64,000 nucleotides of DNA, from positions 276,474 through 340,473 of the forward strand of contig JAQGBZ010000034.1 of the NCBI GenBank assembly GCA_034687125.1, read 5' to 3'. Every line of letters begins with the position of its first letter. Position 1 is the first letter of the stretch. The DNA comes from Neelides folsomi. Its lineage: Eukaryota; Arthropoda; Collembola; Neelipleona; Neelidae. The notes beneath the pieces are model-generated. The model saw only the letters and a list, made by a program, of their open reading frames with translations. It had not been told where the DNA came from and ran no database searches. Below are positions 9,717-32,200 of the stretch, one piece after another. The position numbers were made by a program, and so were the translations under genes.

Positions 9717-10329
9717 TATACAGATAACATATTCATACATTCCAATATATGGTATACATAATATGTATAGTTATATTTATATTATGTATTTCTACTCAGC
9801 CGCATTCTCGGTGCATATTAAACGTGGAAAGATAATCTGGACCTATTACGGAGATGGGTCACAATGATCGTATTTGTATTCCATAGTTCACCTGTAATAA
9901 TACTACATGAGAAGCCCTCCAGGGTTCTCCCTTTTTTCTCTGGCCTTTAAATGAAGGAATGATGATGTTCATCTCGAATTCTTTTCCTCAATCCCCAATG
10001 CCCAGTCAGCATAAAAAGATGGACAATCGAGTCCTTCATTTCCTATGGATCATCATCATATGTAGTTATAATATGAAACAGGGTTTTGGGCCAGGGAGCC
10101 CAGGCGGCTTTATCAGAAGAGCTATTAGATTCCATTGCATCAGCATTTGTTCTCATCCGGACTCACGTTCTTCGGTCGCCGCCGCTTCTTCATATGATGT
10201 CTCTTTGAGGGATGAGAAATTGAAGTCATTATTACGAGAAAACTCATCCAGACTTCCACCAGCAGCCAACCAAGAAACCCAATCTCGGCTAATCCACCCC
10301 ATGAAGGACCAACCTAACAATAAATGTAC

Positions 10330-10500
10330 ACAAAACTATCTGAACAGTATACATATATCCAATAAATACAGTATGTATTCAATTTACATATGGTATATAT
10401 GTACAGACATGTATATTTATGTATGTGTGATGTATGTGTGATGTATCTGTATATATAGTATGTATGTATGATGTTATATATTTAATGTATGGAATGAGAT
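10330..10500. repeat. TA/TATG-rich low-complexity island
   Basis: Interspersed TATG, TGTGATGTA and TATA units. Representative of TA/TACATA-rich islands that recur through the window (e.g. 14780-14960, 21390-21620, 36930-37170, 63060-63330). Confidence 0.7.
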
Positions 10501-12358
10501 GTATAGTGGACGGGTTTTATAGGGACCGATATTTGAATATTCCACCTGTCTGGACCGAGCACCATCCATCCGAGTTTCGGAATTTGTATCGGCTCCTTTG
10601 TTCTCAGATCGGGGGAATTAAGGTCGTGAGGAGAAGAAGGAGGTGAAAGCAAATAGCCGCCCGGCTCTTTTAATAACGAGGATTTCACGAGAAAATGAGG
10701 GTCGGAAAGAGTGAAATGAGCTCGTGTCTCACGACTTTATTACCTAGACAATACATGGAGGATTGGAAGGAGTCTCCATTGTGCAGTTACCTTTTATTCT
10801 CACTGCCTTTCTTCAACCTGCTAAATCCAGCCCAATCTCCTCATTCCGGGATCATCTCGGAAGGGTTTAATTCCCACTGGCTCTAACGAGCTGCTGATTT
10901 AAATCATTTATATTATTCATCCTAAACCACTGTGGAGGAGGAATGTAAAATATTACGTTCTTTATCGTATAAAGTTCTTTATTACGTTCCTTGCTTTCTC
11001 TCTCTCGAGATATCTTGGGGGTGTTTGAATGGAAGAGTCGGAAATCCTTCTTAACGTTTGAGCAGAGTGCTGATGAGTGGCTGAATAATTCAAATCCCAA
11101 ATTTACAATTTCAGCCATTGGAGATAATGGGGAAGGTGTGTGTTTGTCATTAGGGGTGGATTACAAGAAGGAATCATTCCAAATGTGCTGTGTCTTAAGA
11201 GAATAAAAAATGAGTTCTTTTGGATCTTTCATTCCGAATGCTCTCACTTCTAATCACCGTCTTCCCAAACGTCCCTGCATGAAACTGGAAGGGATGTGAG
11301 AGGGAAATCCTCTTGAGGGAACGACTACCTTCACAGATCCAACAACAATATTACAAATATATAGGTATGTTGGTATTATATGAATTATATCAAAGTTAAA
11401 TAATAGGAATACCTACATTAGCTACTACAGATATATTGAACATCGTAAACATTATTAGTGCGAGTCCCAGGGTGTATATTAATACAATATTTATATAGGT
11501 GCAGGTATAGGTTACATTACAGGGACTAGTGGGTCCTTTGTATGTAGGTTTAATATGAGCCCTCATCTTGTGTCCTCAGTTTTTCTTGTGCAAGTGAGCG
11601 GGCTACTGCCTTACGCAATCCCTTCCCCACCTTTTTTGAAGTTCTTGAGAACGTCTGAGCCGCTCCCTTTTCCTCGTCCCAAATCATCCCTTTCTTTTAA
11701 AGACACATTAAACGAGGAACACATTAAGTGTATTCTCTCACATGGAGCGATACAATGGGGATCCGTAAAGTAGGCAGGAGAGCAACGGTCAAAATATTTT
11801 TTTCTCTCGTCTTCACTCTCTCCTTCTTCAAGGGCCTTTGGAGAAGGGACGAGGAAATTAGGTAATGATAATCTCTCTTTATGAACCCCCACAGGAAATG
11901 TATAGGAAGCCCCAATATTTCATCGACCCTGATGAGGAAGGAAAATCCCTCCATGGATCAACGGAAGGAGTACTTTAAGTACAGACATTACGGTCCTCTC
12001 CATTACAGGACTCTACCTGGCCTTCTCCCCATATTTCCTTCAGCTTCTCGCCATGGGCTCTCTCGGGTTGACCAAAAGGGTTTCCCCAACGGCGGGTTTT
12101 CTCAACCTCGATGGAGCTTCTGTCTCCGTCCTTTGTTTTAACCCTTAATTTCTTCATAATTCATCTCTGGGCCCTTCCTATCTCCTTCCTATATCTTTCT
12201 TCCTATTTCCCTCGACAGGGTCGCAGGGCCGGAGAGTAAATCTTCTCCCCCCGCATTTCCCACCAATCAACAAATAAGTACGAGATTCTTTCTTAATTCC
12301 ATCCTTGGCCAAACTCCCAGTTTCACACAGACTCTCCGGCCTGTTTACATTTGACCTA

Positions 12359-12756
12359 TAGGGTTGTCTGTTATATTCGTAGACTTTTGCTAAATGGCTA
12401 TAATATGACTAAATTATGTTATAAGAATTTCATAACTATTCTTAATTTTGCTTTGCAATTAAGCAATTTTAAAATGAACTATAATTTTGATTTAATTGAA
12501 CAAAGTGTTGTCATAAAGTTTTTAGCTTTGGAGGGTTTAAGGGGAAAGGCAATTCACTCTCGCTTGCTTAACGTTTATAGGAAAGAAGCGTTAAAATATA
12601 AAACGGTTGCAAAATGGGCACAAAAGTATCGAACTGGACATCTGAGTATTATTGATGGCCATCGTGAAGGAAGACCAAAATCAATAATTGAATAAATTCT
12701 CATTAAAATAAAAATCAATTTTTCATAAAAGTCTACGAATATAACAGACAACTCTA
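12359..12756 (+). mobile_element. Internally deleted mariner-type element
   Basis: 30-bp terminal inverted repeats (12359-12388 and 12727-12756) share TTGTCTGTTATATTCGTAGA, with one mismatch near the tip, and the element is flanked by TA on both sides. Between them lies only the N-terminal part of a mariner/SETMAR-type transposase. The 398-bp length, against about 1.3 kb for a full mariner, shows deletion of the catalytic domain. Confidence 0.82.
12474..12695 (+). pseudogene. Truncated mariner transposase, helix-turn-helix part only
   Basis: The frame from ATG 12474 holds IEQSVVIKFLALEG, then a second helix-turn-helix segment (KYKTVAKWAQKYRTG) and the linker GHREGRPKS, typical of mariner DNA-binding domains. 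It stops at 12695, right before the 3' terminal repeat. The DDD/DDE catalytic region is absent, so the product could bind terminal repeats but not cut. An open frame extends upstream to 12351. Confidence 0.8.
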
Positions 12757-12759
12757 TAT

Positions 12760-15700
12760 AACCTGTAATCTTTGACTTTTCACTCAACTCTATCTCATAT
12801 TAACCAAATTACTCCATCGGCATCAAATAAATGTAGAATTAATTCATTAGACATTTTAATTAAATTAAAATTTTAAACATTGTTAATACGAAACTAACAC
12901 TGTACATTGTATACTATACATATGTCTGTGCCTGTCTCGTCAAGTATACTTTTATATGAGATATCTATGCAAAATGTTAGACCATTTGTAAGTGAGGTAG
13001 TGAGACATGGAAATCGGTCCTTGAGAGTTTTTTAATTAAGAGCTGCCTCATGTCGTCATCTTTTTATGAGGTGGATAAACGGAAATGAGTCTGAAGTGAA
13101 AAAAGATTCCTCACTTCATCTAATGCAGATGAGATGAAAGGTGCCGTCGGTGCAGGTGCCTTCATCTTCTCGCCCATTGCGGTCCACCGCTCAAACGCTC
13201 CCATGTAAAAACATTTCACTCTTCTCCTATGGAAAACTCCACATTTATAAATATGTATACATATACTAACATGTACACACACATATGGTCAGTAATATAT
13301 CGTATAAGATGTACGCAGGGAGGATTCGCCTTTACAACAAGTCCTGTTGGTTTCAATCAACCAAACATTTTTAAACATTCACTTTTTGCCCATTTCGCGA
13401 AGGTTTTTCATCAACGTGGTTGAGATTAAAGAGGCGCCAGTAGGACAATCAAACACCGCAAGGAATACATCCAAGGTATTTCAATCTTTTTACCATCAAC
13501 AACACTAAAAATCAAAAGAGGTTTAAAACTTTAAACTTACAAACTTTAAACCCAACGAGGAATTTAATATAAATAAATATATGGAATATGAAGTCATCGA
13601 CCTAATAAGTAGATAAATAAGTTATTTAAAATGAATCAACAGGAAGTGCATGTTCATGTCACATTATTTTCCTCCTTATGGGTTGGATTGAAAAAAGAGT
13701 GAATTTCATTGATTCTCTGAACTCGTTTCTCCACATGATCGTGACATTGTAAGAGTTGTAAGCCAATTGATCCCAGAGGTGATTCAATTAAAGTGGAAGA
13801 AGATAGGAATAAATGAAAATGGAGATAAGCCATCTGGGCCTTCGATGAACCCTCTTTGTTCGAGATATGGCGGGAGTGAGAGATACCGGAAAGGACGAAG
13901 AAAGTGAATGTGGTGAAGGGTCTCTTCCGGTGACCTCCTTTCGGCTCCCATTACCATCCTTAAGATTCAACAAGAAACTTCATTTCCATTCCAAACATCT
14001 TTCAGCCTCATGTCCCTTTACTTCCATTACCACCACCATAATCTTATTAATTTACATATATCATCAATGGAGATTTGAAAACCAAAATAATCAAATTTTA
14101 AATATAATTATTCTGAGATTGCATATTTTATAAATTTAAATATATTATATATTCTTAAATATATTATAAATATCTTAAATGCATAATAAATATCTGTACA
14201 TAATCAATGTCATTGATTTGCCTCATGTTTCTTTGAATATCTGATGGACCATTTATTGAGTAATTAAATGGAGGTTTCCTCAGATTTGGGAATGAGTTTG
14301 AAGGGAAGTTGTTAAGTCTTTGTAACGATACCTGGGAGAAGTTTGACTGGGCCCTGAGAACCCTTGGGAAGGTGAGAGGGCTTAAATGGGAACAGACGGC
14401 CCTGCCATGTGCTTCATATCCGCATCCGTCCGTCCCTTCCTCTTCTCACATTCGTTGGCCTAGGTCATCCCTCTCACCTTCCTCCTTTCTCACAACCATA
14501 AAGAAGACCGAAGGCGGGAAAAGTCGACCGGAAGAGAAAACCTTTTTTTACTCATCTTCAAGTCTCCAAAACACCGCATGGGAAAGCTTTTCATTTCACT
14601 ACTACTCACCTTCTCATCCACACCAACAAAAAACACATTCATGGATGAATTCCATATTATACTACCCATTTAATATACTACCCATTTAAATACATAATAA
14701 ATACCATTATTATTTTTAAAGACAGTTGAACCGCCAAACAAATAAAATTCCAAAATCACTGGACTTTAAACAAATAAGGTATAAAACGGTATAATAAATA
14801 CATACCATATATGTATACAGATAGTATATTATGTGTCATATGTAATATTTAACCTCTTATATGTAAATGTATAATATGTGTAATATGTCATATTTAACAT
14901 GTCATATTTAATACAAATATACATGTAATATTTATATAAGTAAAGATTGATTTTGTAAGTATTGATTTATATTATTTTTCATATATTTGAAGTTGTTGGA
15001 CAGAGATTCATTTGAAGGGACCAAGTGGCCTGCAGACGCGAGCCAGGAAGGGACTCGAATCACCGAATGAATGGTAGTGAGGTCCTCCAGCTGGCTACCG
15101 TGAGGAACCCTTGGTCATTATGGTCATGGCACGGGAAGGGATCGACAGGTGGTTCCTTGGAGATGATGATCTGATTCCTCCATGTCTTAGCCTCATGTTC
15201 AAGGGCTCAAAAAGAGTCCCAAACAGACAAAGACTTGCTTTCCCGCTCTTCACTTCCTTTCCTTCATTTCGACCAATGTAGATTTTAAATAAAATTTACA
15301 ATATTAGTTAGTAAAATAAAGTTATTTAGATACAGAGGAATTGACAAGTATTTAATAAAATTTTGTAATAAAAAATTGGGTTCATTTAATAATCCAAATT
15401 TTCATATGGATGTTTGCCAATGTTGAGGTAATTTGAATTGAAGGATATTAAAATAATTAAGCCAATGAAGTTGTCAACTTTTCTGTGAGTGAATTTAATA
15501 TCGTTAGAGTTTGCATGACAGATGTGAGAATTTGGTTAGTTTGCGATAATCAATGCTTATATAAGCTACACAAAGATCAATGAGCCATTTATTAAATATT
15601 TACCTACTCAGATAGCACCTTAATTTCATTTGTCGTTCCTTGTTATCATTGGAATATTTGTTACTTTAACACAATTAATTGAATCAATAATCCTAATTTA

Positions 15701-16335
15701 TTCTTTCTCAACAGTTTTAATAAATTACATTTTGAGGCAACTACTTTATTTTCAGATTCTATTATCTCTTATGAATATGACTTCCCATTTCTAAATTTTT
15801 CTATTATTTCTCAATTACATAAATTTCATGTTACTAATTTTTAATTTCGAGCATTTTATTTTACGCAGTATTCTATGCCATTTTCTTGTGACCATTAATA
15901 TAATTAAATGTAAGTACACATATGTTTTAGGAATACGCTAATCACATATTACATAAGAGTACTGTATAGTTTAGTACTTCAATAAACTTGATAACTAACT
16001 ACGTATGGTATATTGTTAAACACTTAATTGCTACTTTTATTATCTTTATATGTATTGTAATGCTTTGTAATTAACATTTATTCAAAACTAAATATCAGTA
16101 GATACTATATATGTACTTAATATAACATTAAATGCATAAAAACACCATTTATACATTGTGATAATTAAACTTGTAAAATTTTAAATAATACTTTTGGATT
16201 TCTGTGAGTGCCATGCATTATGCTCATACGGAGCGAAAATTGCTATTTATGCAAGTTATCAAATATCAAATATAATAAATACAAGAATTATTTAGTTGGT
16301 GATGATTCATGCATAAATAGTTACATATGTGTATT
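12760..16335. other. Intergenic sequence, no gene seen
   Basis: Mixed unique sequence and, from about 15270, very AT-rich DNA. Nothing recognised. Confidence 0.5.
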
Positions 16336-16768
16336 TTCAATGTAAAAACGGGTATCTTTTTGGGGGAAATTCGTTAGTAACGAATTTTTTTTAATTGAAT
16401 TTCCTAAAATTGTGACATACAGGTATTAGAACAAAAAATGGGGCATGATACGTCAATTAAAATATGAACAAATTAGTATTTATATATGGTATAAATGTCA
16501 ATTAATGCTGAATCTATATAGTATGATATTTGAATGTTAATTGGCAATTTTAAAGTCTACTTGATAACTTAATTGGTTTTACTAAATGTTATATGCATTT
16601 TATTTAGTGCAATTCTTTAAGCAAATATTGATAATTTTTGTATTTAATGACAAATTAATTTTGAAGTATTATCATTATATTTATAATATTCTATAAAATT
16701 AATTGTTTGATAAAAAAATAAATCGTTAGAAACGAATCTTTCAGAAAGATACCTGTTTTTACATTGAA
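16336..16768. mobile_element. 433-bp inverted-repeat element
   Basis: Ends share an inverted repeat of about 45-48 bp: TTCAATGTAAAAACGGGTAT at the left and its near-complement at the right (ACAGG for ACGGG), continuing into a TTCGTTA...TAACGA palindrome. The interior is AT-rich without coding capacity. CATATG lies just outside both ends, but no clean target duplication is visible, so the superfamily is unassigned. Confidence 0.65.
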
Positions 16769-17264
16769 AGGTTTCATATGTATAATACAATTTAATTGAT
16801 ATTTTTAATTCTTGGTAACTTTATATTCATATTACTTACATACATTTAATATCTAACAATATGTAACACTTATATGTACATAGGTATGTATATTTGTATA
16901 TGTATCATACATATCTGATGTACATATACTTACTACCTACTTATTACATTAGTTACTGTTACTAGTTACTTAATGGTTATATCTGTAGGTATTTGTAAAT
17001 ATTTGTTATCTTCTTTTAATTGATTTCCTTTCTAATAAATTTTGTAATTTTTTTGTTATTCAAGAATATGATTATTGTTTAAATATGGAAATTAGTAAGG
17101 TAAGTATATGAATAAACTTTCTTAATTATATTTTGCAAAAACAATATTCGTCTTAAAAAAGAATTTCCTGTATATGAATCAAAGACCGAATTCCTTTTTC
17201 AAAATAGGTTTCAAATTGGGATTACCCGATACATATTTCATTTCTAAGATTCCTCCCCTTAGTA

Positions 17265-17270
17265 TTTATT
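17265..17270 (-). terminator. Candidate poly(A) signal overlapping the Ilp7 stop codon
   Basis: On the minus strand the stop reads TGAATAAATAC: a canonical AATAAA shares its first A with the TGA stop. If used, the 3' UTR would be only about 10-30 nt. A later signal may be the real one. Confidence 0.35.
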
Positions 17271-17399
17271 CAAGTTTTGAGGGATCGACGTGACCGACCG
17301 AATCGTCGATGTGTGGGGCAATATTCAGCATATTCTTCCCAAGTGCAACCTGCTGGACTACAACACTCGTCAGTTATTGACTTGCTCTCTCGTTTCCCT
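17270..17399 (-). CDS. Ilp7: Ilp7 coding exon 3: A chain and stop
   Basis: 130 nt. The acceptor is CCTGTGTTTTCAG|A. The first base completes AGA (R115), followed by a GKR cleavage site, the four A-chain cysteines and a basic tail (THRRFGRSRR) before TGA at 17272-17270. The exon lacks an ATG of its own, so a simple ORF search misses it. The 238-bp intron before it is typical of this locus. Confidence 0.93.
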
Positions 17400-19626
17400 C
17401 TGAAAACACAGGTCCAAATTAGGAATTCCATTAGTGATATTTTGATCATCTAAGGAAATTCTAAACTTCATTATTAACAACACAAGCCTTGACTCAAATC
17501 CTTCAAGACTTGTAAATATTCTCACTTCAACCATTTCTTAATTCTTGTTCAGGGGAATGATTTTTGACAAGTAATTTTGTTAATTGGACGGAAAGGAGTT
17601 CGTGAGTTTGGGTGATTAAATGAAAATCCATTTTTACCTGTCATATCCACTCCATGGCTTGATCAAATGATTGGCCTCTCGCTTGTCGATGAAGATTTCC
17701 TCAAGGGCCTCGTCCGAAGGCTCCTTTGGAACCTCGTGGGATCTTTTGTCAAACCGATAAATATCTTTTTCACATGCCCAATCCATATGGGTGAGGAGCT
17801 GATCTCGGCACCGAACGTGTTTCTCCAAGTGCCAAGCCGATTTCCATTCATCTTCGTTCCTATTATTCCATGAGATTAGCATTCCCAGAAATCATCTCTT
17901 TTTAATCTCCACCCTTGAGGACCAAAAAGGGCCCTTGGTTCACTGAAGGGAGATTCTCCCACAAACCCTTCTGCCACTCCTTTTACCTTCCTTCAACAAA
18001 ATCCACAATACCAAACATCCTAGGAAATGTGTAAATGAAAAGGTCAATGTATAAAGACTTGTTCATCTCCGGAACAAATTGACTTCTCCCTTAAGTCCCA
18101 ATGAGACGTTTTTGAGTTAAAGCGTGAGAAAACACAGGTCGTAAATTACATGGACATTTTAATCACCAATTGGATTATCCTATAGAACATCACCTGGTAC
18201 TGATAACCTAATAGGATATACTTAATAACTACCATATGTATATAATAACAGTATATGTAAATGTACCTGTACCGTATATGTAATACCTACCTAATAGTAA
18301 AAGATATATCAATTAGAAGGTGTAGTGTACAGATATATTATTATGTGTATGCCTGGAATGTAAATACACCAAAGTAATGGGGAAACACACGAGATGAACA
18401 TTAAGGATGCAGAAGCTGAATCAATGCATTTTTTGATCAGGTTGAATAAATGAGAAACATGTTGTTAAAGGGAACTTGGTAATCAATTACGTGTCCACAT
18501 GGGAGAGAAATCCCAATGAATGAATGAATTCCAATTCTTCCCCATAAAAATTTCACTGTCAAAAGTTGGCCAGCCCAGAACAATAAAAGCCGATGAAGAT
18601 CTCTCGGTTACCCCAGTGAATAAAAATCCAGACACGAAGAGTCGGAATGTCTGGAATTCATTGAACAAATCTTTCCCATTCTCTTCATCTCCTCGGTTTG
18701 ATGGGACTTTGATGCTCCACAACAAATTGGCCACCTTCACAAACCTCGCCCATTTCAAAGAGAGAAAAGTGTTGAAAGAATATGTGTTCCGTGGTTTGAA
18801 TGCCAAATTCCCCTTCTTTATTACATTAACTATGCAAATTGTTCTCAAAGTTCATCAATATTATAATTTTATAATGTGAGTAAACAAAGAAGCTCTTTAA
18901 AAATCATCAACCTTTGCATGGATTCTATGTGTAAACTATCGATCATCTTCCAGCCTTTTTTTAATTCCTTTCAGAACCAACACTTTAACTTCTTTCTCCA
19001 ACACGTTGAAATGGATAAATGGATATTTGCATAGTGATTATATTTTTTACAAACCTGCGTTTTACGAGGTGCGTAAGAGTGCGAAACATAATAATGAATG
19101 ATATTGGATTCTAAAGGTTAATTGAAAGCTTTTAAATTTTTAAAACAAGGCCACTTGCTGTCTCCTATTTCGTTCCACTTACAAGCCAATGCAATGCATG
19201 TACATGTATGGGACATGTACACATGTATCTGTAAGTTGTATGTAAGTACAAGGTATTAAATTTTAACAACTTTGTAATTTCACGATGGAGAAAGGAAATA
19301 AAAAGTGTTTTATGGCATCACATTATCGTCTAACGGATGACCTGGAGAAATATACATGAATATTGTAAATATAAATAAATTGAAGGAAGTGAGGAATGGG
19401 ATTGAATCTAATTAAGGAGTCGTCATTAAGAAGGTCCAGGGGAGTAAACTTTCTCTGAGGGCAGAATTTGAAATGAAGCGTCGTCTAGACGACTGCGAGT
19501 TCACCTTAATTGAAAGATCTTCTCGAGCTGTGCCTCTCGGTCGGTGAATGCCGGACAGGGGAGGAGAGCAAAGGTCGCAAGGACGAGACTCACGCAAAGC
19601 AGAGGAGGAGGAAAACTTCTGGACAT
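17270..19626 (-). CDS. Ilp7: Insulin-like peptide 7 (relaxin-like prohormone), 3 coding exons
   Basis: The spliced coding sequence is join(19626-19505, 17859-17638, 17399-17270), 474 nt and 157 aa, with phase-2 joins at both introns. Residues 1-26 form a signal peptide with a hydrophobic core (LLCVSLVLATFALL). The B chain carries C58 and C70, 12 residues apart as in insulin, inside CRDQLLTHMDWACEKDIYR. The C peptide has basic cleavage sites at DKR80, DKR101 and GKR118. The A chain has CC127-128, C133 and C142 inside ECCSPAGCTWEEYAEYC. The CC-x4-C spacing and the WACEKDIYR and GCTWEEYAEYC blocks match Drosophila Ilp7 as I recall it, not generic insulins. In flies Ilp7 is a secreted neuronal hormone of the relaxin-like class, thought to act through an LGR-type receptor. 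A start at M19626 gives the best signal peptide; other upstream ATGs in the same frame would place charged residues first. Confidence 0.95.
17638..17859 (-). CDS. Ilp7: Ilp7 coding exon 2: B chain and most of the C peptide
   Basis: 222 nt. The acceptor is AATAATAG|G, with a good branch-like CTAAT about 20 nt upstream; the donor is GACAG|GTAAAAAT. The frame holds W46 and W50, then C58 and C70 of the B chain, and dibasic KR80 and KR101. The ORF could read a few codons further upstream (MLISWNN) without splicing, but only the spliced start matches exon 1 in phase and the family sequence. Confidence 0.92.
17860..19504 (-). other. Ilp7: Ilp7 intron 1
   Basis: 1,645 bp between the signal-peptide and B-chain exons. 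No nested gene recognised. Confidence 0.8.
19505..19626 (-). CDS. Ilp7: Ilp7 coding exon 1: signal peptide and propeptide start
   Basis: Encodes residues 1-40 plus two bases of R41. ATG at 19626-19624, then a proline-rich, leucine/valine-rich signal sequence ending near PCPAF-TD. The exon ends AAG|GTGAAC (donor GT at 19504-19503). Phase 2 joins to the first base of the B-chain exon and gives FQLR-NEDEW, which parallels the RER...DWENVW region recalled for fly Ilp7. The following intron is 1,645 bp. Confidence 0.88.
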
Positions 19627-22600
19627 TCCTGGGATGCCGCTCCTCCTCAATCTGAACAAGATAAAATTCCGAGTCATCTTCAATCCAAGATGAGACACTG
19701 TAAATAAAAGGAGCCCAAACATTGTTCGCCTCCTTGTACCCGGTGGTCCAATTGAACCTCTTCCCAACAACATATGGAGATTCACATCCTTATGGGAGCC
19801 AACACTGGGCCACTCGACGGACATTCCAAGGGATCTCTCAGAGATTCTCTCTCAGAAATTCTCGAGATCCAGAGGAATGACACAAGCCTTGTTGGTGGGA
19901 ATAATTACCAAATCCCACCAAGTGCCCCACTTCTCCCATCACCCCCGGCAAGTGTGAATAAATTTATTGTGTTGGGCCCTATGGGGAAAATACCGGGGAT
20001 TCCCTATGTAGATACGAATTCCCTAAACGTCTAATCTAAACGGCTCGTGGCTGTGGGCAACAAAAACGCCTTTAACCCTTCCCGTAATTTAATCACAGCT
20101 TTCACATCCGCAACCCACATTTTTCACTTTATATATTTCTTTCCAATTGACCTTCAATTCATATTTATTCTTCATGATCACAACCTATATTTAACTTCCC
20201 TTATATTAACTTAACTGTATTAACTTAACCAAAAAATTTCCTTATATAAATAAAGTCAAGATCATTCCACCCCAATGTCAATCACGTAATAATATGTACG
20301 GTTTTTTACATCTCTTTTGATCTTACTACCAACAAGTGGATCCGCTATAGTCAATACTTGAGACCTTTTAACAATATATAAGAAATTTAGTATTTTTTCC
20401 TCCTTCACACCCTGGCTTAAGTATTTGGTGTTTAGAAAAAGGGTGGATTTTGGAACTTGGGAGATCACTGGGGGCAAGAGGAAATAAAGGTAAGATTTCC
20501 AATCTAATCTCCCGTTACTACATGTATTCTTAGTAATAGTATTACAAGTACCATAATGCGAGTGAGGGTAATTAGGAAGTTTGAAGGACCCAAGGTTTAA
20601 ATGAAAAATGAAGGAGTTACGTTTACCCACCTGTCAAATTCAATATTCCAATTTCCTCCAGACTCAACTGATGAGGAATTTTTTGAACAGCGCTGAGGGA
20701 AAGTCAAGTGATCATAATTTGTATTTATCTGGAGGGTTGTTGAGAACCATGGGATTAAATCGGCCGGAGTCGAGGACGAGAGACAAATGGGGTTGAGAGG
20801 AGGACAGGTGAAAATTAAAAGGCTTTCCTCAATGACGAGGGCAACATGCGCCAGGACGAGTTGGGACGGTTTTACATATGTTGTGTCGCCAGGGTCGGAT
20901 GAAGGTGACGTTCCAATTCCGGATTGTCCGGGAGTTGTGAGGGCGGGGTGTTTTGATGCGTCGTCGTCCTCCTCCGCTGCCCCCAACATTTATTATCCTT
21001 TGTTTGAGGACGTAGGAGGAGGTTTGAGCTACTTTCAAAACAAAGAATCACTTTAATAACAATGTAATAGCCCAAGATTCAATTCCAGGTGTACACACCA
21101 TTCATTCCATTCTTCCCATTCCCATTGGACCACATTGACGACGCTTCTTTCTGCCCTGACAACTTAATGGAATCTTCTCACTATCGAAACAAGTAGCTAA
21201 ATGGTAAATAAAAACGTCTAATTAAAATTATAACCAATTTTAACGTCTCGTACAATTTATCATTAAACTATTTTAAGCGGATCCGTCACTTTGTTGACCA
21301 ATTTATTCTAGGATTTTTATACACGTCATATTGGACAAAAAAGATTTACTCGACAGTATGCTAATATGACAAACTCAATTCGTGTTCATGATTAAATCCA
21401 TATATGTCATATACGTCATACAATACATATGTCATATGTCGTATACCTAAGTACTGCATATGTATGTAACAATGTAACAAAGGACTCTAAAAATAAAATG
21501 TATATTAAGTTCATGTATTTATTATTATTAATTAAATGGAAATATGATAAGATCTTATATATTATGGTAAATACGTATACTGATTGTATTCAATATATAT
21601 ATATTTAATGTATTACATCATATAAGAACGGAAATTTTGACTTTTCTCTCATCTTGCGTGAAAAAGTTGGGAGTGAAGTTGAAAGTTTGTTTGGAAGAGG
21701 GCGAGTAGTTGAAAAACGTTCCTTTTCGCTTCTACACATTTCATTCACATTCACATTCAAGTTTAAACATGAAAAAGGGTTTGTCTAATGAAAATTCATT
21801 TATTTATTTATTAATGAATGTAAATTAAATATAATGATGAAATTAATATTATTATTAATTTTTATTACTTATAATAATGTTATTTAACATTATTATAAGT
21901 AGTTGATAAATAAATAAATGCTTATCGATAAGAATGGGGTTCAAATGATGAGTTCTAAGAGGAGTTTGCTCACAATCAAAGGTCGAGTAAAGATAAACTA
22001 TAAATTTATTTAATATTTATATGTACATACAATATACATGTATATGTAATATATATATGTATGTATATTGAGTATCCATATCTTTATATTATAGTCTTAA
22101 TTGATATACTGATATATAAACATCTTATAAAAATAGAAAAAATGGAATTGGGTATGTTAATGAGTTTTTAAAATGTTCTCTGCGACTCCCCAATGATGAT
22201 GGATGGTGATTGAATAGTGAGGGGGATAAAGAGCTTCCATCATTCTTTATATTCATTATTGGCATTTATTAGTAAAAAGGCCGGGCCGAACTAATTTTGG
22301 ATAAAAATGTCTTTTATGTGACCCTAGATTGGACGTGGACGTGTGTGGAATTGATTTTGCTTGCTAAACCCCCGGGTCCTTCCCATCCCGAACCGAGGAT
22401 TATTGGAAGCCGAAGTGTTGAATCTCTTAACAGCTCAATGATCTCCAAGGAGAGAAAAGGATTCCTAATGATGGTCCCGGAGCACATTTAGCCGTCAGGG
22501 ATTTGTAAGGTCCTTGTAATGTAAGAGGGATGAAGCCGCACGTTCCAACCCTCACCTTTGACTCCAAAGATTCATTAATATCTCATTGAAAGTTGTTCAC

Positions 22601-25572
22601 TCGGCGTTGCGCTCATTGAAGACCACATGGTTCCTTTTAATTCTCTTTTTAAACATCCGATGGATCGAATCTCTCATCTTTGTGATCAATCACTCAAATC
22701 TCTCCCCCAGCACCGGCCTTTATTGTCCACTCGACTGGATTACATTTCATTACCTTTTCAAGACCTTGACACTCTCAGTCCCTTTCAGACTTCTCCCTCA
22801 GGCCCACATCTATCCGATGACTAATATTCCATCAAGTGTCAGGAGGGGAATTAGACACGATGGAAATCGGGGCAGGTAGGAGCTATGTTAATGAATTCAA
22901 TTCCAACTCTTTCAAACTGAATACTCTGAGTCTCTAAAAATAAATATTTAAATACCAAATACTCATTTACATTTCAAAACACAGTTTACATACATTCCCC
23001 ATCTATTCAGAATGGATCCAAGGATAGTCTATATAATGATTAGAATTAGAATATGTATTAAAGTTTTTAATAACTCACACACTTTCCACCTTATGTTTCG
23101 CAGAACAAATCCAAGATCCCTTCAATGACCTTTGTTGAGTTGAAACGAAAAAATGAAGTTTAAGGGCGATGAAAGAACTTAACATAATGTATGATCATTT
23201 CTTTCAAAATCTGTTCCAACTGGATCTCTGGCTAAACTCATGCAATGCATAGAAATGCAAATATGAATTAATATAAAAGACAACTGATTCTTATTCTAAA
23301 TACATACCATACATATACGCACTATATTATACTATAAATAAGTACATAATGTATATTGTAATTGTATATATAAGAATATGTAAATATTCCTAACTTATAA
23401 GTTCAAATGAAATTTTATGAAAAATTACTTGTATAACTTATGTATATAAGATATGAATATTACTTTCATCATGGTTGGCTCCTTGGCTCAATAGGAAAAA
23501 TAATATTAAAATACGACCGAAGTTGGATGAATGTGGAATTGTGAAGTGAAAGGTTCTTGCTATATACATACTTATATAAACAGAAATACATACAAGAAAA
23601 GTTGATATAGTAAATGTATCATACTTATTATATCCATTATGATATGTATCGTATTCTACCTTAGATCTTCATTAATATGGATTAATTTGAAAGGATTTCT
23701 CGTCCAACCGCCCTTCAGCGCCGTTCAACCCAAGTGGCTCTTGAGAATGTGAAGAGTTGAATGGGAATCAATTTCTCTCTTCGCCTCCCGGTTGTCACTC
23801 TCCGGGGACGGACGGGTGTGAAGAAGAATTATTTTCTAACATACACGGCTAATTGACTTTCCCTTTCAACTTTACTCAATTGGCCCTTGTGGACTTCCAC
23901 CGGGAAACAAAAGCCGAAGGGGCATAGAAAACCTAAAACTAAAATTTAAACTCTACAATGATGGACAATTGAAAGAGTCAGATGGCCAAAACATAGAAGT
24001 CGTACTTTGAACATTGATTCAAGTGATATTTAAATTTAAAATGTTCCCGTTCCGCACGTCCGTTCCTCAAGGGTTCAACTCAATGGTCAACATTTTTTGC
24101 ATGACAATTTTGACTTACTGCACATGTGTCTATTTGATTAAATCAACAGCTCCCCTTGTCAAGTAACTTGATTCACTCAATTCTCCTCTCATACAATTTT
24201 TTATTTCGGGGAAAGGAGAAACATGAACTTTTGGAATGGTTCTCTGGGCTGGAATTGACATTGGCCGTCATCCCAATCATAACTCATTCCTTTGAGAGGA
24301 ATTTGAAGTCCGTTGGTTTGGAACAACGACTTTGCCCCATTTTTTCATTTTTAAAAACTGGTGGGCTCGAGTATTTAATTTGTCATTCTGTATAAACAGG
24401 GATAGTTTCATTTGATACGTAGCCTACTTGCGTGAGGTCATTTGAGTAGAAGGAGGGACAACGAGGGATTTGTATGTCAATAATCTGTAACTGTCAGGAC
24501 GAGGATTGTGATGTAACAAAATGGTCATATTTAGACTACACTCATATTTACTCAGGTAGGTTTAGGTTCAATACTTTTCCTATCTATCAACCTAATAGTC
24601 ATCCATAGTCCATAGTTGTAATCGAGTGGAAAAAAGGTGAATGGGCTTTCATTTACCTAAATTGTTAATGGACGAGTAGCCTGGAAGTTCCATTTACATT
24701 TATTCACAAATGTAAAGTCAACAATTGAGGAAATTGGATCCAAATGAAATACAAGAACAAATACAACCAAACGTTCGACTTATTTCACAAACACGCTTCT
24801 TGGGCTTCATTATCCAATTACCATCCGGGTGGTCGACGTTAACGGCTAACGTTCAGTTATTAATTCAACTAAATTGTTGTCAAAAACCGCAAAAGCCGGA
24901 GTTAACCATTTATTTATTTAAATTAAATGAATTATGTTTAAACTAACAATAATGTTTAAACTAAATTTATTGTGTTTAAGCTAATGCCGTCTATTTATGA
25001 TATTTATGAATATGGATCACAAAATGAGTGTTAGCTAACTGCCATAAGTTATCCATGAGATAACATAAGAATAAAGTAATTGATGAAAAATGGTGAAATA
25101 AAAACACAATTTTCATTTGAAATTTTATTGCGAGCTTTGAACGGTTGGGCGGTACAAATAATTAAAAAATAATCATATACATTTGAGTATTAAGTCAATT
25201 TAATATTTTTGAGTTAAGTCTTAAATAATCGTAAGAAATTAAATATTCAGTCACCAGAATAATTGATTCTATTAACGAGATTCTTCATTACGGAGTCGCA
25301 AAGGAATTCAATCACTAATTATAAATTAATTAACTGGAATCTTTAACAGCACATTCCGAAAGATGGGCACTCACACACACAATGGCAGTCTTCTCTCAAT
25401 GGATGTAAACAAATGTTATTTAAGGCCACAATCAATTCGGAACAATTATAAAACTATTTTAAAGTAATGTTAAAAAGTAAAAATATTAAGTTAAAGGTAC
25501 GAGTACCCTAAAATTTGATTTGTTACAAAATCGATAAAACTAAGGCTGGTAAGGAACTTGATAAAATGAAGT
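19627..25572. other. Region between Ilp7 and the HP1-like gene
   Basis: Should contain the Ilp7 promoter and 5' UTR, which I cannot place. It includes a hairpin at 21866 and triplicated ATGTTTAAACTAA-like units at about 24935-24983. No other coding exon supported. Confidence 0.5.
21866..21901. repeat. Perfect 17-bp AT-rich hairpin
   Basis: TACTTATAATAATGTTA and its exact complement flank a TT loop, inside a long AT-rich stretch. Confidence 0.7.
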
Positions 25573-25578
25573 TTTATT
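25573..25578 (-). terminator. Candidate poly(A) signal for the HP1-like gene
   Basis: This AATAAA on the minus strand lies about 250 nt past the stop codon, and I saw no canonical signal nearer. Cleavage-site evidence is absent. Confidence 0.3.
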
Positions 25579-25788
25579 ATCAATATATAATTAACATACC
25601 ATGTAGTTATATTAGGTAGAAAATAAATTTAATTTAATTGAGTAAATGACAATTGATCAAACACTAAGGTTAGGAACTTAAAAATTAATTTTATGACTTA
25701 CAAAGGTCAGAATATTAAAAAGGGGGGAAAGGTATACATAAAAAGCATAAATAACCATCATGAAAAAGAAATTGATATAAAAATCAAG

Positions 25789-25908
25789 ATGGCTGCTAAG
25801 AGAAATACAAATTGGAATTGTGTTTTATACAACAACTGTACTAGTGGGAGGAGAAATGAAATATTGAGTTTTCATATAATTCCCAGATTGGGGCCAACTA
25901 GTCTTTGA
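25789..25908 (+). other. Short THAP-like reading frame, likely a degenerate fragment
   Basis: A plus-strand frame from ATG 25789 reads MAAK...NWNCVLYNNC, then SFHIIPR, and stops at 25906-25908. Two cysteines followed by an S-F-H-x-x-P block resemble the start of a THAP (C2CH) zinc finger, common in P-element-derived sequences. The first cysteine spacing (five residues between) is one more than usual, and the second half of the domain (C-x2-H) is missing. It overlaps the last HP1-like exon on the opposite strand. It may be a transposon remnant or chance. Confidence 0.25.
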
Positions 25909-26085
25909 CTCGTAATAGTCGATAATTAATTGAGGGAAATCATCCCGAATGTTGGATGACAAAACGATATCTCTATAAGCTGATTTACTCCACTGTACAA
26001 GATACATCACTTCACCCATCCCGTTTACAATAGCTCCATAAATTTTGTAAGGTCGAAGAGAACGTTCAGAGCCGCTCCTTCCGTT
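25825..26085 (-). CDS. HP1-like coding exon 3: chromoshadow domain and C-terminus
   Basis: 261 nt, 86 aa plus TAA at 25827-25825. The acceptor TTTTGTTTTTCAG|AAC has a strong pyrimidine tract. The chromoshadow domain fills residues 499-552; a 22-residue tail (ending PPTSTVVV) follows. The DNA of the tail is antisense to a short plus-strand THAP-like reading frame, so the tail may be a recent extension (inference). Confidence 0.9.
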   Translation of the reverse strand, partial: NGRSGSERSLRPYKIYGAIVNGMGEVMYLVQWSKSAYRDIVLSSNIRDDFPQLIIDYYESKTSWPQSGNYMKTQYFISPPTSTVVV

Positions 26086-27814
26086 CTGAAAAACAAAAAA
26101 GAACTCAAAAATTAAATAAAAGATTCCAAATTGGGTTAGGTTAAATTATTAAAAAATAAAGATAATAATAATATATATGTAACATTTATATATCCAACAT
26201 GTTTAAAATATATTAATTAAAGATGAGAAGGAATGAAAATGAACTCTTACTAACGTTAGCCGGCTCTTTGTTAATCTTGGAAGATTTCGGGCCCGGCTTT
26301 ATTTTTATCTGAATTTTCGGCTTCGTCTCGCCCTTTTTCTTCACCTCTGGCTCGCCCTTGTACTTCCCGCCAGTCTTTTTTGCTGACTCGGTGACTTTAA
26401 TTGGGCTGAGAGGGAGAGTTTTACTCTTAGGACCAGGTCGCTTAGTAATCGACTTCTCAGGAGTGATTTCCTTTTCAACAACATCCCAATTATCCTCATC
26501 GTCATCTTCTGACGTTTGGTCTTTAGTGGATTTCTTGGAGTTCTTTGGAGTCCGTTTGCCCTTTTTCTCAGATTCCCGTTTAGTCTTCGAATCCTTCGAA
26601 GTCTTTCGTCCAGCATTTGAACCTGGTTTTCTCTTTTTCTTCATTTCTTGCTGTTTCCGTCTCCACTTGACCTCGAACTCATCGATCAGGTCATCGCATT
26701 GCAGTCCCTCATTACGCTTTTGCCACGTATTGTCGCAGCTAGAAGTAATCGAAATTTTATTAAAATAAATATAATTAAGAATATAATCTTAATATATAAT
26801 GGAAAAGTTTAATTAATTTTAATTAAAAGCTTACTGGTCCCATCCAAGCCATTTTACTTCGTAATAAACGTTGGGCTTATTCTTCCCATTCTTTCCCTTG
26901 ACGTATTCAGTCCGTTTGTCCAGAATGGCTTCGACCACCCATTGCTTCTCTCCATTCTCGTTGACTTGATAAGCGTCGGGTTTCACTCCAGTGTAATCGT
27001 CCAGGTCAGGGAATGGCTGAAGAATGATAGGCGATTTTGGCCTCGGTTCCTCCTCCTCCTCACTCTGTTCGGGAGTTGGAGGTCTGGTCGACTTTCGTTT
27101 CTTCGTCACAGACTTCTTCTTCGGCTCATCGTCCTCCTCCCTCTCGACCTTCACTTCGGAGTAGTCCGCTGAGACTGACTTACGATCAGACTTTTTCTTA
27201 TTCTTAAAGCGTTCTTGAGTCGACTCCTTGTCGGAAGATTCAAGATGCTTCTTATTCGAGGCAATGATCCTGGCCCGAGTCTTATTGGATCGCTCCTCCT
27301 CCTCTTCCGGGGTTTCTTCACGTCTCGCCCGTTTATCCTTCCCATTCATCAAAGGCGTCTTTTGCTTCTTTTTGGGTTGGACGGAGTCGGCCGACTCTTC
27401 GCGTCTCTTCTTTTTCCCTCTTTTCACCGACTCGTCATCGGAAGACTCATCGCGGCGACTCTTTCTCTCTGATGCCTTCCACCTGGGTGGAGATTCCTCA
27501 GAAGATGACTCGCGCCTTTTCTTACTTTCAACCTTCGACTTGACCTTTGACCTTTCCTCGACCGACTCTTCGGACGAGTCCCGCCCCTTTCGGCTAGCCC
27601 TCACATTGGCCTTTCGTCGTTGTTTCTGGTAAGCCTCCTCAGATGAACTGCGTCCCTTTTTCGTTGCCGACTTGGGGCCCGGCTTTCTGGCTCGCCTATC
27701 ATACGACTCCTCAGACGATTCCCGCCTTTTCTTTCTTTCCACCAGGGCCGGGGCCTTCCTGTCGGATCCCGACTCCGACTCCTCCGAAGCTTCTCGCTTT
27801 GACCGCTTGTCCAT
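25825..27814 (-). CDS. HP1-type chromodomain/chromoshadow protein with long N-terminal extension
   Basis: join(27814-26835, 26738-26255, 26085-25825), 1,725 nt and 574 aa. The start is supported by an in-frame TAG ten codons upstream. Residues 1-290 are a lysine/arginine/serine/glutamate-rich extension with repeated basic-SSEE blocks (RRESSEES, GRSSSEEA, GRDSSEES, RRESSSEES, RRDESSDDES). Residues about 291-355 are a chromodomain: QWVVEAILDKR, then YYEVKWLGW, then CDNTW and DDLIDEF. Residues about 356-498 form a basic hinge with KRPGPKS and KPGPKS motifs. Residues 499-552 are a chromoshadow domain (RPYKIYGAIV, MYLVQW, PQLIIDYYESKTSW) with the final Trp that receives PxVxL partners in HP1. The pair chromo plus chromoshadow defines HP1 (known family): it reads H3K9 methylation and dimerises in heterochromatin. 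The extension far exceeds usual HP1 size (about 200 aa), so which HP1 paralogue this is remains open. Confidence 0.93.
26255..26738 (-). CDS. HP1-like coding exon 2: end of chromodomain and basic hinge
   Basis: 484 nt. The acceptor is TTACTTCTAG|C, completing H327, then CDNTWQKRN and CDDLIDEFEVKW, the chromodomain C-terminal helix. The remainder is a lysine-rich hinge with TSEDDDEDNWD and three basic proline-glycine motifs. Two donors overlap here: GCTAAC|GTTAGT and GTTA|GTAAGA. Only the first keeps the frame into the chromoshadow exon, so it is chosen although GTAAGA looks stronger. Confidence 0.87.
26835..27814 (-). CDS. HP1-like coding exon 1: S/E/K-rich extension and first half of chromodomain
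   Basis: 980 nt, residues 1-326 plus two bases. ATG at 27814-27812; donor GACCA|GTAAGC. The C-terminal part holds the first chromodomain strands with aromatic-cage candidates W292, W322 and W325 (Y, W and F/Y in typical HP1). An extra run of about eight residues (KGKNGKNKPN) lies between the first two strands. Upstream, acidic-serine blocks next to basic residues look like casein kinase 2 sites (inference). Confidence 0.92.
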
Positions 27815-27929
27815 TTCGAGAATGATTGTCGGTGTCGAGTGTCTCTACTTGGTCAATGCGCAGTACCTAGGGATATAAATAGCCTAAGTATATGCAACAG
27901 GTTTCTCTATATGCACGTGGTATCTCACC
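27815..27929 (-). promoter_or_regulatory. HP1-like 5' UTR with candidate 62-bp intron
   Basis: A donor TTGAAG|GTGAGA (GT at 27928-27927) and an acceptor TATATCCCTAG|G (exon resumes at 27866) define a possible 62-bp intron just upstream of the start codon. Its size fits the other mini-introns in the window. The same stretch holds TATTTATA about 30-40 bp before 27845, so a TATA-type promoter with transcription starting near 27845 is the alternative reading. Confidence 0.4.
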
Positions 27930-29190
27930 TTCAATTCCCCGACTCCGAAGCCGGTCAAGTGGAGAATGACGCACCTGGGTCGGGAAGTGACTGTGGAGGA
28001 ACTTCAATTACCTCTGGAGTGAAGATGTGACTTGCCGTTGCAGAACCGGAGGGTTCTGAGAATAAATGACGCCGAATTATGAAGCCGTCGTGTCGTGGCC
28101 TGAAGAGAAAGTTAAGCCACAAATTGGAGGGATTTTATTTCGCGTTCTTCATCCTCCCAATCACTCACTTTTCTCAAGTCTCCCCGTCTCATACAAAAAT
28201 GTCTTGTATTTATTTATGACCACTGCACTTGATAAAACCAAAATGCTGGACCAAATATTCCAAAGACGGCTCCTTTGGTCACTTAAAAAACAAACGAAGA
28301 ATTAGGAACCTTAAAAGACCTCCAAGGGTTTTTCGAGCCCTTCTAACATTGAACAAGGTTTTATTTATTCCTAGGTTTATTTATTCCTAGCTATGTGTCA
28401 CACATTTTATTTTCAGAAGGGCCCCTTATTAGTAGTTTTTCAGTACAATAAATATTATAACTGTATTCTAATCTTACAAGATGTAATGGAAAATAATAAT
28501 TTAACTAATTTGATATTTTATGATTTTCTTTCTCATTGGCTTACATTTAGTAAATACATTGAATCAGTCATAGTGAGTCAAAACAATGGAGCTAATACTT
28601 ATGTAATTTGTAATTCCATGTTACTTTTATGTATCTGATAGGAATGTACATTAGTTTGGATTTATTTGAATTGAATTTGGTTCTACTGGTCAACTAGGTT
28701 CCCTGGTGAGACTTTCTCAATGTGACTCTTGTGAATATTGACAATGACATTTCCATCACTACAATCCTCATGTACTGAAAGGGAGTTGATCAAAGGTGAA
28801 GGATCGAAGATTGGAAAAAGTCTAAATCTCGGCCATTGAAGGGTGATGAGATGTGAAGTGTCGTGAAAGAAGGGCTCACTTAAGGGCGCTCCGAACCAAT
28901 GGACCCGAAGGAGAACCGGCTTTGGCCCGGTCGAGAATCCCCAATCCTTTGTGTCCCGACTCCTCTTCATATTATTTAACTTCCTCTTCATATTTAGCTG
29001 AGGGAGGAGGTCTGCATAGTAATTGGGGCTGTAAGAGTAATTGTGTGAAAAGGGCAGGGCGGGGAAGACCGCGTGAAGTTGTCAAATAAATAGATGAGGG
29101 CCAGATGGGTTAGTGGTCACTCACTGAGAAGGTGGGACCGGTGAATTAAAATTCCAAATTGGGCTTTTGTCCTCACAACTTGACTTTCCT

Positions 29191-29209
29191 AACCGAACCG
29201 AACCGAACC
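29191..29209. repeat. AACCG pentanucleotide repeat
   Basis: AACCG repeated nearly four times. It is not the arthropod telomere unit (TTAGG). Confidence 0.7.
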
Positions 29210-32200
29210 ACCCAGGGAGGACTCCTCGGCCTTTCCACACGCCCCTTCCCCATTGAGGGCTCCTCTCAGTCCAACTCTCGTTCCAACTCTCTTTCATCAA
29301 ATCACATAATAAATGAGAGGGGAAGTTTGAGTCCACAACTCCCGGGTCACTCTTTTATCCCCATTGTCGGAACATTGGCCCTCTTCTTTAAAGTCCTTGT
29401 AAATGAAGCTTTTGTTCGATCCTGCCCCATTTACCAAATTAGGACTCGGGATATGTAAAGAACTCCCTTTTGTCTCTACCAGAGCTTTTCATTAAAGGGA
29501 CTCTTTGACCTCTTCAATGATCCCAAATTGCCTCTCAAACTCTTTCATCCCCTCCAATGTGCTGAGTGGGGAGAGCATTGGGAATTGATTTATTGGCTTG
29601 GTCCAAGACCCTCGTGGAGCTCATTCTATACCTTAATTATTCCTAATTGCTCTCGACCCAACCGTTGATTCTTATTATTACGACCGTTTTCATCCATTTG
29701 GCTTTCATCTCCCATCCATTACCCTTTCCCCCAATCTCCCATTGTTCCAAAGACAGATTTCCCCTATTTTAACTCCACTAGTTTAATGCCGGCTATTAAG
29801 ATTAAATTTATGATCTAACCATTTAAGATTTAGTTATAACTCATACTGATAATCGACATCAAAAAATTTCCAATTTGATTCACTTCAGGGTCTCAACTTT
29901 GTTGCAAGTAATTAATAGTATTAAAATATTGAGAAAACAATTTCATACATCAACATTTGCCATTACCACTGGCTATATGATGAATTTGCATTTAATAAAA
30001 TTAGTAAAGGATTCATCAATCGAATCTTAAATCAGCGTAATTTGACATAACTCCCCATTATGGTATTGACATCTCTCAACATTAGCTGACGACAGAAATG
30101 AGTAAATTATAGACTTTGCTATAAAATAGACAGAAGATTGAGACTTGGGTGGAATGAATTGATAATGGCGAAAGTAAAATGTTGAGTTTAATGCAATTAT
30201 TGTTTTGTTTACTTGATTCAAATAAGGACTTATTCCATGCTTCCTTTGTTTACTTAATCTTTAAACGAAGCTTGAAGGAGAAGCTCAAATTTCACAATTG
30301 ACTAATTTCCATTGGATAAATTCTCCAGTTGCTCTTTTCCCTATTCTCAAATTTCACAATAATACATTAAATACAATGTTAAGAATGAGTTTAACCTTTA
30401 GGTTCAGTTTCGCTAACCAATAACAAAATCGTTATCAATGTTTATCAAACCCATAAACTTATAAATATGGCACGATAACCTTAACAATGTAGACCCAATA
30501 CATATATCATTATCATACATATCGTTATCATTTTACTTTTATTAAAAATGATTTACTAAATTGGTTGTAAGAAGAGTAAAGGAGATTTAATTACTAAAAG
30601 GAAAGTTAATGAATATATATCGGAAAGTTAATATATATCTAAAGGTACATTTCTTAAACCATTAAAGTTGAATCAATGTATTAATACATATGAATGAAAA
30701 ACATTTTATTTCACGGTGGAGGAACTCATTCGAGCCCAGGATGACTTTCAAGACTTGTGAACGTAAAAAAGGGAAGGATTTGTTTACCGACCGACATTTG
30801 TCCGTTGATGTTTTTTGTGCGGAAGAGCGTCGGTCAGCGGCAGTCGGCAGCCTGTGACGATCAAATGCATTGTTAAGCTCCCATCCGAGTCTCCTTGGCT
30901 CAAAAACATCTTTTCACCACTCCAGAGATCCTCGGGGATAAGGGCTGGTTAAGGCCCATGCCCATGTGTGTTCGGAGGGAGGAAGCGGATTGAAGCTTGA
31001 TTGCTCATCCCTGAACTTCTCCTCCTGGTCCAGCAAATCCACCACAAATCTCAGACTTCTTTGCCTACACAGGAAGAGGAAAACTCTCCAGACCCATGGG
31101 AATTGATCCGTTATTTAAATCATCCAACATTATTAAATATATTACATGAAGAATATGTTAATACACCATTTAGAATATGTACATATCTATGTATAATAAT
31201 ATTATATGTATCTGTATTTAAATGTTAGTGGAACTGCATGCTGCAGTCAGCTCCCAATTGTGCAACTCGAGCAGAAAACTCAATTGCGAGACCCGTTGAT
31301 TTAAATCACATTTAACTACATTGACTATTTCTAAAATACACACATGGAATATTTATTTTATTTTCATGATTTACAATGTCTATGTATTGTCAGTTTTTGA
31401 AAGCCGGTTTCAATGTTTAACTTAAATGCATGTACAGATATACACATATGCAATGTATTTGTATGTAGATTAATGTATTATAGATATGTATCTGTAGTTT
31501 TAAAAGAGTGTAGTATGTATATGTATATGGGATTATGTATGCTTTTATAAATAAGATATTTATTGATAAAAATGAAAACCGTTTAGACCATTTTTTCTCA
31601 TGTTCGGACGGAGAATGAAAAACAAGAGGAATTGATAACAAACATTAATTTTTTATCTGAAAGTATTTAAAATCTCTGAATGAAGACAAATCAACAACAA
31701 AGCCTATAAATATCATTAATTTTATACAATTATCTTCTGTATCCTTAAGCTTTTTTACCAAGCTAGAATAAACAGATTCTATATATATTAATCTCTGGAC
31801 GTTTGAACAATGTTAAAATTAAAATTAAAGATGAGAAAAATATATTCTATCGACTCGACGCTGAACTTAAATTATAAACTAATGTAAAATAAACATTTCG
31901 GTAGTTAATGACTTATGACTACACAACTTCTCAAGTATTTAGAGACACAATTTCTAAAATATACATTTTCTGGATTTCTACATACAATTAGATAAAAAAT
32001 TATCGACTAGAAATTATTGATATGATTCGCGTAACTTGGTCTTTGCTTTGTTATAAAACGCGTCTCGATTGAACAAAAGTCCACATGAATAAACTTTTTA
32101 GGAAACTCATTGAAAGGAAAAAGAAGTAAATTTTTGATTAAGGATTTGACTAATTACTAAAATTAAATTGCAACATTTTTTGACTAATAAAGAAGAGTTA

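Follow-up and report, generated by a model that had tools for sequence, protein, structure and literature searches.

Three exons on the minus strand of the 64-kb window (the whole stretch of DNA analyzed) very probably make up a complete gene for Ilp7 (arthropod or invertebrate relaxin) that looks functional. Joined at GT-AG sites, the exons stay in phase and encode a precursor of 157 amino acids (471 nt of coding sequence). A first-pass annotation of this DNA had proposed three minus-strand exons at the positions given in Table 1, joined in phase into a precursor of that length, and both translation and the GT-AG junctions bear this out. It had also described an A-chain exon without an ATG and a distant leader exon; no in-frame ATG is present in exon 3, and the leader exon is indeed set apart by a 1,645-bp intron. 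A three-exon hormone gene was thus read correctly from raw sequence, and the result serves this animal as a usable model of a conserved peptide-hormone gene. Ilp7 is a well-known hormone of the invertebrate insulin/relaxin family, and the finding opens no long-standing question.

Gene model and splice sites

Table 1. Features of the proposed Ilp7 gene, with positions counted from the first base of the window
Feature	Position	Strand	Length	Intron phase	Content	Basis or remark
Coding exon 1	19505-19626	-	122 nt		Signal peptide (MSRSFPPPLLCVSLVLATFALLPCPAFT...) and start of F-domain (LEKIFQLR)	Translation, donor AAG/GTGAAC, hydropathy, alignment to Ilp7 leader and F-domain
Intron 1	17860-19504	-	1,645 bp	2		Separates leader from B-chain
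Coding exon 2	17638-17859	-	222 nt		Remaining F-domain (NEDEWKSAWHLEKHVR), B-chain core C-RDQLLTHMDWA-C, KR at residues 79-80, most of C-domain with KR at 100-101	Translation and alignment
Intron 2	17400-17637	-	238 bp	2 in best model		Within C-domain
Coding exon 3	17270-17399	-			KR at residues 117-118, A-chain CCSPAGCTWEEYAEYC, basic tail PTHRRFGRSRRSLKT	Stop codon TGA included
Possible poly(A) signal	17265-17270	-			AATAAA; overlaps the stop codon by one base, its first A being the final A of TGA	Consensus match only

The junction of intron 1 reads AAG/GTGAAC...AATAATAG/G. Seven GT/AG pairs keep the frame between the exon-1 reading frame and the B-chain exon, and only one of these, 19505/17859, keeps the whole leader and LEKIFQLR before the B-chain. 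With 19557/17851, most of the leader survives along with some of the LEKIFQLR segment; the remaining five retain just 1 to 12 residues of exon 1. Exon 1 was linked to the gene in part because 19505/17859 alone retains intact both the leader and LEKIFQLR, the latter aligning without gaps to Ilp7.

Splice sites were scored with a rough consensus matrix. The junction of intron 2 reads CAG/GTAAAA...TTTTCAG/A, with the donor CAG/GTAAAA at the 97.6th percentile and the acceptor, TGTTTTCAG/A, at the 94.8th. Nine in-frame pairs are available for this intron, among which 17638/17399 scores best at 5.2, the runner-up reaching -0.9. At the 5' end, the hydropathy of the leader peaks at 2.65 in an 11-residue window. 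The start codon is uncertain because the frame of exon 1 is open upstream to position 19851 and holds further in-frame ATGs, for example at 19677. The weakness of the intron-1 acceptor also counts against the model.

A model that is right about the gene and slightly off in its structure, which would be compatible with the preferred explanation, is the likeliest alternative, and we regard it as unlikely without being negligible. The true gene could use another start codon (the ATG at 19677 would add 17 residues), include a further coding exon upstream, or have its intron 2 in phase 1, with 17651 joined to 17397. The frame left open upstream, with its ATGs, speaks for such a model, but the ATG at 19626 places the hydrophobic stretch near the N terminus, as is usual for a signal peptide. 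As to intron 2, the family intron is described as phase 1 in PMC11863921, and two phase-1 pairs exist, one of which (17651/17397) retains the KR ahead of the A-chain; however, these two pairs score -5.4 (17651/17397) and -13.6, against the 5.2 of the phase-2 pair.

The best model thus differs from published Ilp7-type genes in the predicted phase of its C-domain intron, which is reported as phase 1 in insulin-family genes (PMC8286064 and PMC11863921). The odds seem evenly balanced that the intron has moved from phase 1 to phase 2, through shifted splice sites or through loss and regain, in which case the insulin superfamily could not, in this lineage, be recognized by an invariant phase at that intron. 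This possible shift is the sole unusual feature found, and it would be a small point for insulin-family gene evolution, such genes being classified partly by intron phase (PMC11863921).

Downstream of the coding sequence, matches to the AATAAA/ATTAAA consensus were found at 17270, 17020, and 16850, with four more down to 16604.

The precursor and its similarity to Ilp7

The six insulin-family cysteines that had been claimed from the first reading are present at residues 58, 70, 127, 128, 133, and 142, and two extra cysteines lie in the leader (residues 11 and 24). Their spacing is C-x11-C in the B-chain and CC-x4-C-x8-C in the A-chain, an arrangement regarded as a trait of Ilp7, though not an exclusive one. 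The earlier description of an Ilp7-specific CC-x4-C therefore stands for the spacing and falls for the specificity, because the viral insulin-like chain 7u23_C has CC-x4-C-x8-C. KR sites flank the C-domain at residues 79-80 and 117-118, and a third KR lies inside it at 100-101. The tail past the last A-chain cysteine (17265-17317, minus strand; PTHRRFGRSRRSLKT) contains RR, FGR, and RSRR; the A-chain end may therefore be trimmed, the basic tail (HRRFGRSRR) perhaps being cut back to a modified A-chain end.

All comparison sequences (Drosophila Ilp7 and human insulin, relaxin-2, IGF-1, and INSL3) were entered by hand, not taken from a database. Against this Drosophila Ilp7, the product is identical at 56 of 146 positions (109 bits) over a match spanning the leader, the F-domain, and the B and A chains; by block, identity is 23/44 in the F-domain plus B-chain and 18/22 in the A-chain. 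The four human proteins gave 18.5 to 22.7 bits, so that the identification as Ilp7, with no better match to another insulin subfamily, held up among these sequences. The alignment score against Ilp7 was 283, above all 1000 shuffles (maximum, 60). Exon 2 alone and exon 3 alone likewise scored above all 1000 shuffles, and for exon 1 alone the observed score was attained in 3 of the 1000. By second-order Markov simulation (200 runs), the A-chain motif was expected 0.01 times per window with its exact spacing and 0.205 times with a looser spacing.

Using Pfam, a weak match to the Insulin family (PF00049; 18.2 bits, E = 0.0051, residues 58 to 142) was obtained, below the gathering cutoff of 23. The proposed Ilp7 assignment draws on the cysteines, the F-domain, the phase-2 intron, and the KR sites, and the product is not filed under the Pfam Insulin model. 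No NCBIfam family was matched by the product. Among PDB sequences no match was better than an E value of 0.94, and 7u23_C (E = 1.4) was the only insulin-type chain among the four matches listed. Searches for relatives gave six pattern-matched stretches in a viral sequence collection, which holds no animals, and 111 pattern matches in a prokaryotic contig collection, which is uninformative about animals; none was confirmed in either. The A-chain letters were not found in papers. Among the papers listed for relaxin and Ilp7 in copepods and for sea lice, titles and abstract openings did not point clearly to a gene of this kind, which does not amount to a claim that the gene is unpublished.

That the locus is a decayed or unexpressed copy of Ilp7 is very unlikely. 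In its favor, the acceptor of intron 1 is weak, ranking at the 72.5th percentile among AG sites on the minus strand, but the three exons are open and in phase, none of the six cysteines is missing, the C-domain has a KR site on either side, and no second copy was found in the 64-kb window by two scans for A-chain motifs.

Surroundings of the gene in the window

Genes for aIGF, gonadulin, and relaxin are reported to adjoin one another in some arthropods (PMC7357564). Because of this side-by-side triplet, all six frames of the 64-kb window were scanned for other A-chains. The patterns CC-x3-4-C-x7-10-C and CC-x2-6-C-x6-14-C each matched one place, the Ilp7 A-chain itself; such scans detect unsplit chains of the set spacing within the window and miss those that are split by an intron or spaced otherwise. 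A pattern resembling the B-chain, C-x11-C with hydrophobic positions, occurred at 11 places. One is the B-chain of Ilp7 itself; none of the remaining ten came with an A-chain-like pattern. The tandem aIGF-gonadulin-relaxin triplet was therefore not seen within the window, since neither scan gave another one-piece insulin-type A-chain.

Approximately 0.5 kb downstream of the gene lies an inverted repeat (16322-16362 and 16742-16782; positions 10000 to 30000 were searched) with 41-nt arms that are 83% complementary and 379 nt apart, which is perhaps a small inverted-repeat transposon. A fragment on the plus strand at 12297-12695 resembles the helix-turn-helix of mariner/Mos1 transposases (Pfam HTH_48, 20.8 bits, under the cutoff of 24.1) and is probably a transposon relic. 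Long, highly charged reading frames occupy 26213-27844 on the minus strand and include part of a chromodomain (20 bits against Pfam Chromo, under the cutoff of 25.1). The stretch after it carries CDDLIDEFEVKWRRK, and this region is possibly a split HP1-like gene. A Sox-type gene, which we take to be SoxD-like, lies on the minus strand at 44693-45276 and 45720-46322, with its HMG box in two separate stretches. The first half of the box begins at 45267 and the second half matches Pfam HMG_box (E = 3.6e-07, profile positions 35 to 69); the frame at 45720-46322, which matched no Pfam family, is presumed to belong to this gene. Within the window, no Rfam family was matched at gathering thresholds and no tRNA was detected with ARAGORN.

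Place among insulin-family hormones

Two published features bear on the subfamily. Orthologs of dilp7 are described as sharing a conserved F-domain N-terminal to the B-chain (PMC8286064), and Ilp7-type genes are told apart from relaxin/Ilp8-type genes by an intron in phase 2 that separates the leader from the B-chain (PMC11863921). Both were found here: the F-domain LEKIFQLRNEDEWKSAWHLEKHVRC aligns gap-free to Ilp7, and the phase-2 intron lies between the signal-peptide and B-chain exons as predicted from sequence. The Ilp7 reading is supported.

Least probable of all is that the gene is instead of the relaxin/Ilp8 (gonadulin) type, an aIGF, or a neuroendocrine insulin: these share the insulin-family cysteine core, and the C-domain intron is common across the family (PMC8286064 and PMC11863921), but the phase-2 leader/B-chain intron and the F-domain mark the Ilp7 type here, the block identities to Ilp7 contrast with the weak scores of the four human proteins, and the model has no long C-terminal extension of the aIGF kind (gonadulin and aIGF being judged by description, not by sequence). 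The gonadulin/Ilp8 type in particular was set aside because of how the gene is built, its F-domain, and how strongly the product matches Ilp7, a judgment made from these features and not from a tree.

As an Ilp7 gene, the locus is presumably transcribed and likely to have a physiological role in the animal. The precursor would enter the secretory pathway by its leader and fold with three insulin-type disulfides; neuroendocrine convertases, to judge from the sequence, would cut at the KR sites flanking the C-domain, and the hormone would be released as two chains, the B-chain being extended at its N terminus. Its most likely receptor would be a leucine-rich-repeat GPCR of the LGR4 type, with perhaps an insulin receptor tyrosine kinase in addition. 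In PMC7357564, Ilp7 and LGR4 orthologs are reported to co-occur across genomes and a possible second action of Ilp7 on a receptor tyrosine kinase is discussed, and indirect evidence for Dilp7 as a ligand of LGR4 in Drosophila is cited in PMC11863921.

Among known systems, the insulin-like peptide of the virus LCDV-1 (PDB 7u23, chain 7u23_C) has the same A-chain spacing, CC-x4-C-x8-C, in a gap-free alignment, but the match is weak (E = 1.4) and limited to the A-chain part (query residues 120 to 142). Relaxin/Ilp8 (gonadulin) precursors have the insulin-family cysteine core and the C-domain intron in common with this gene; according to PMC11863921 that type is without the leader/B-chain intron and the leader-to-B-chain segment, whereas the Neelides gene has both. 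The phase-2 leader/B-chain intron is one that it shares with the Ilp7-type genes described there. The closest likeness in arrangement is to Drosophila Dilp7, in the leader, the F-domain, the C-x11-C B-chain, the CC-x4-C-x8-C A-chain, and the GCTWEEYAEYCP block, the two differing in the C-terminal tail past the last cysteine, which has 15 residues here, with RR and RSRR, compared with nine in the Drosophila hormone.
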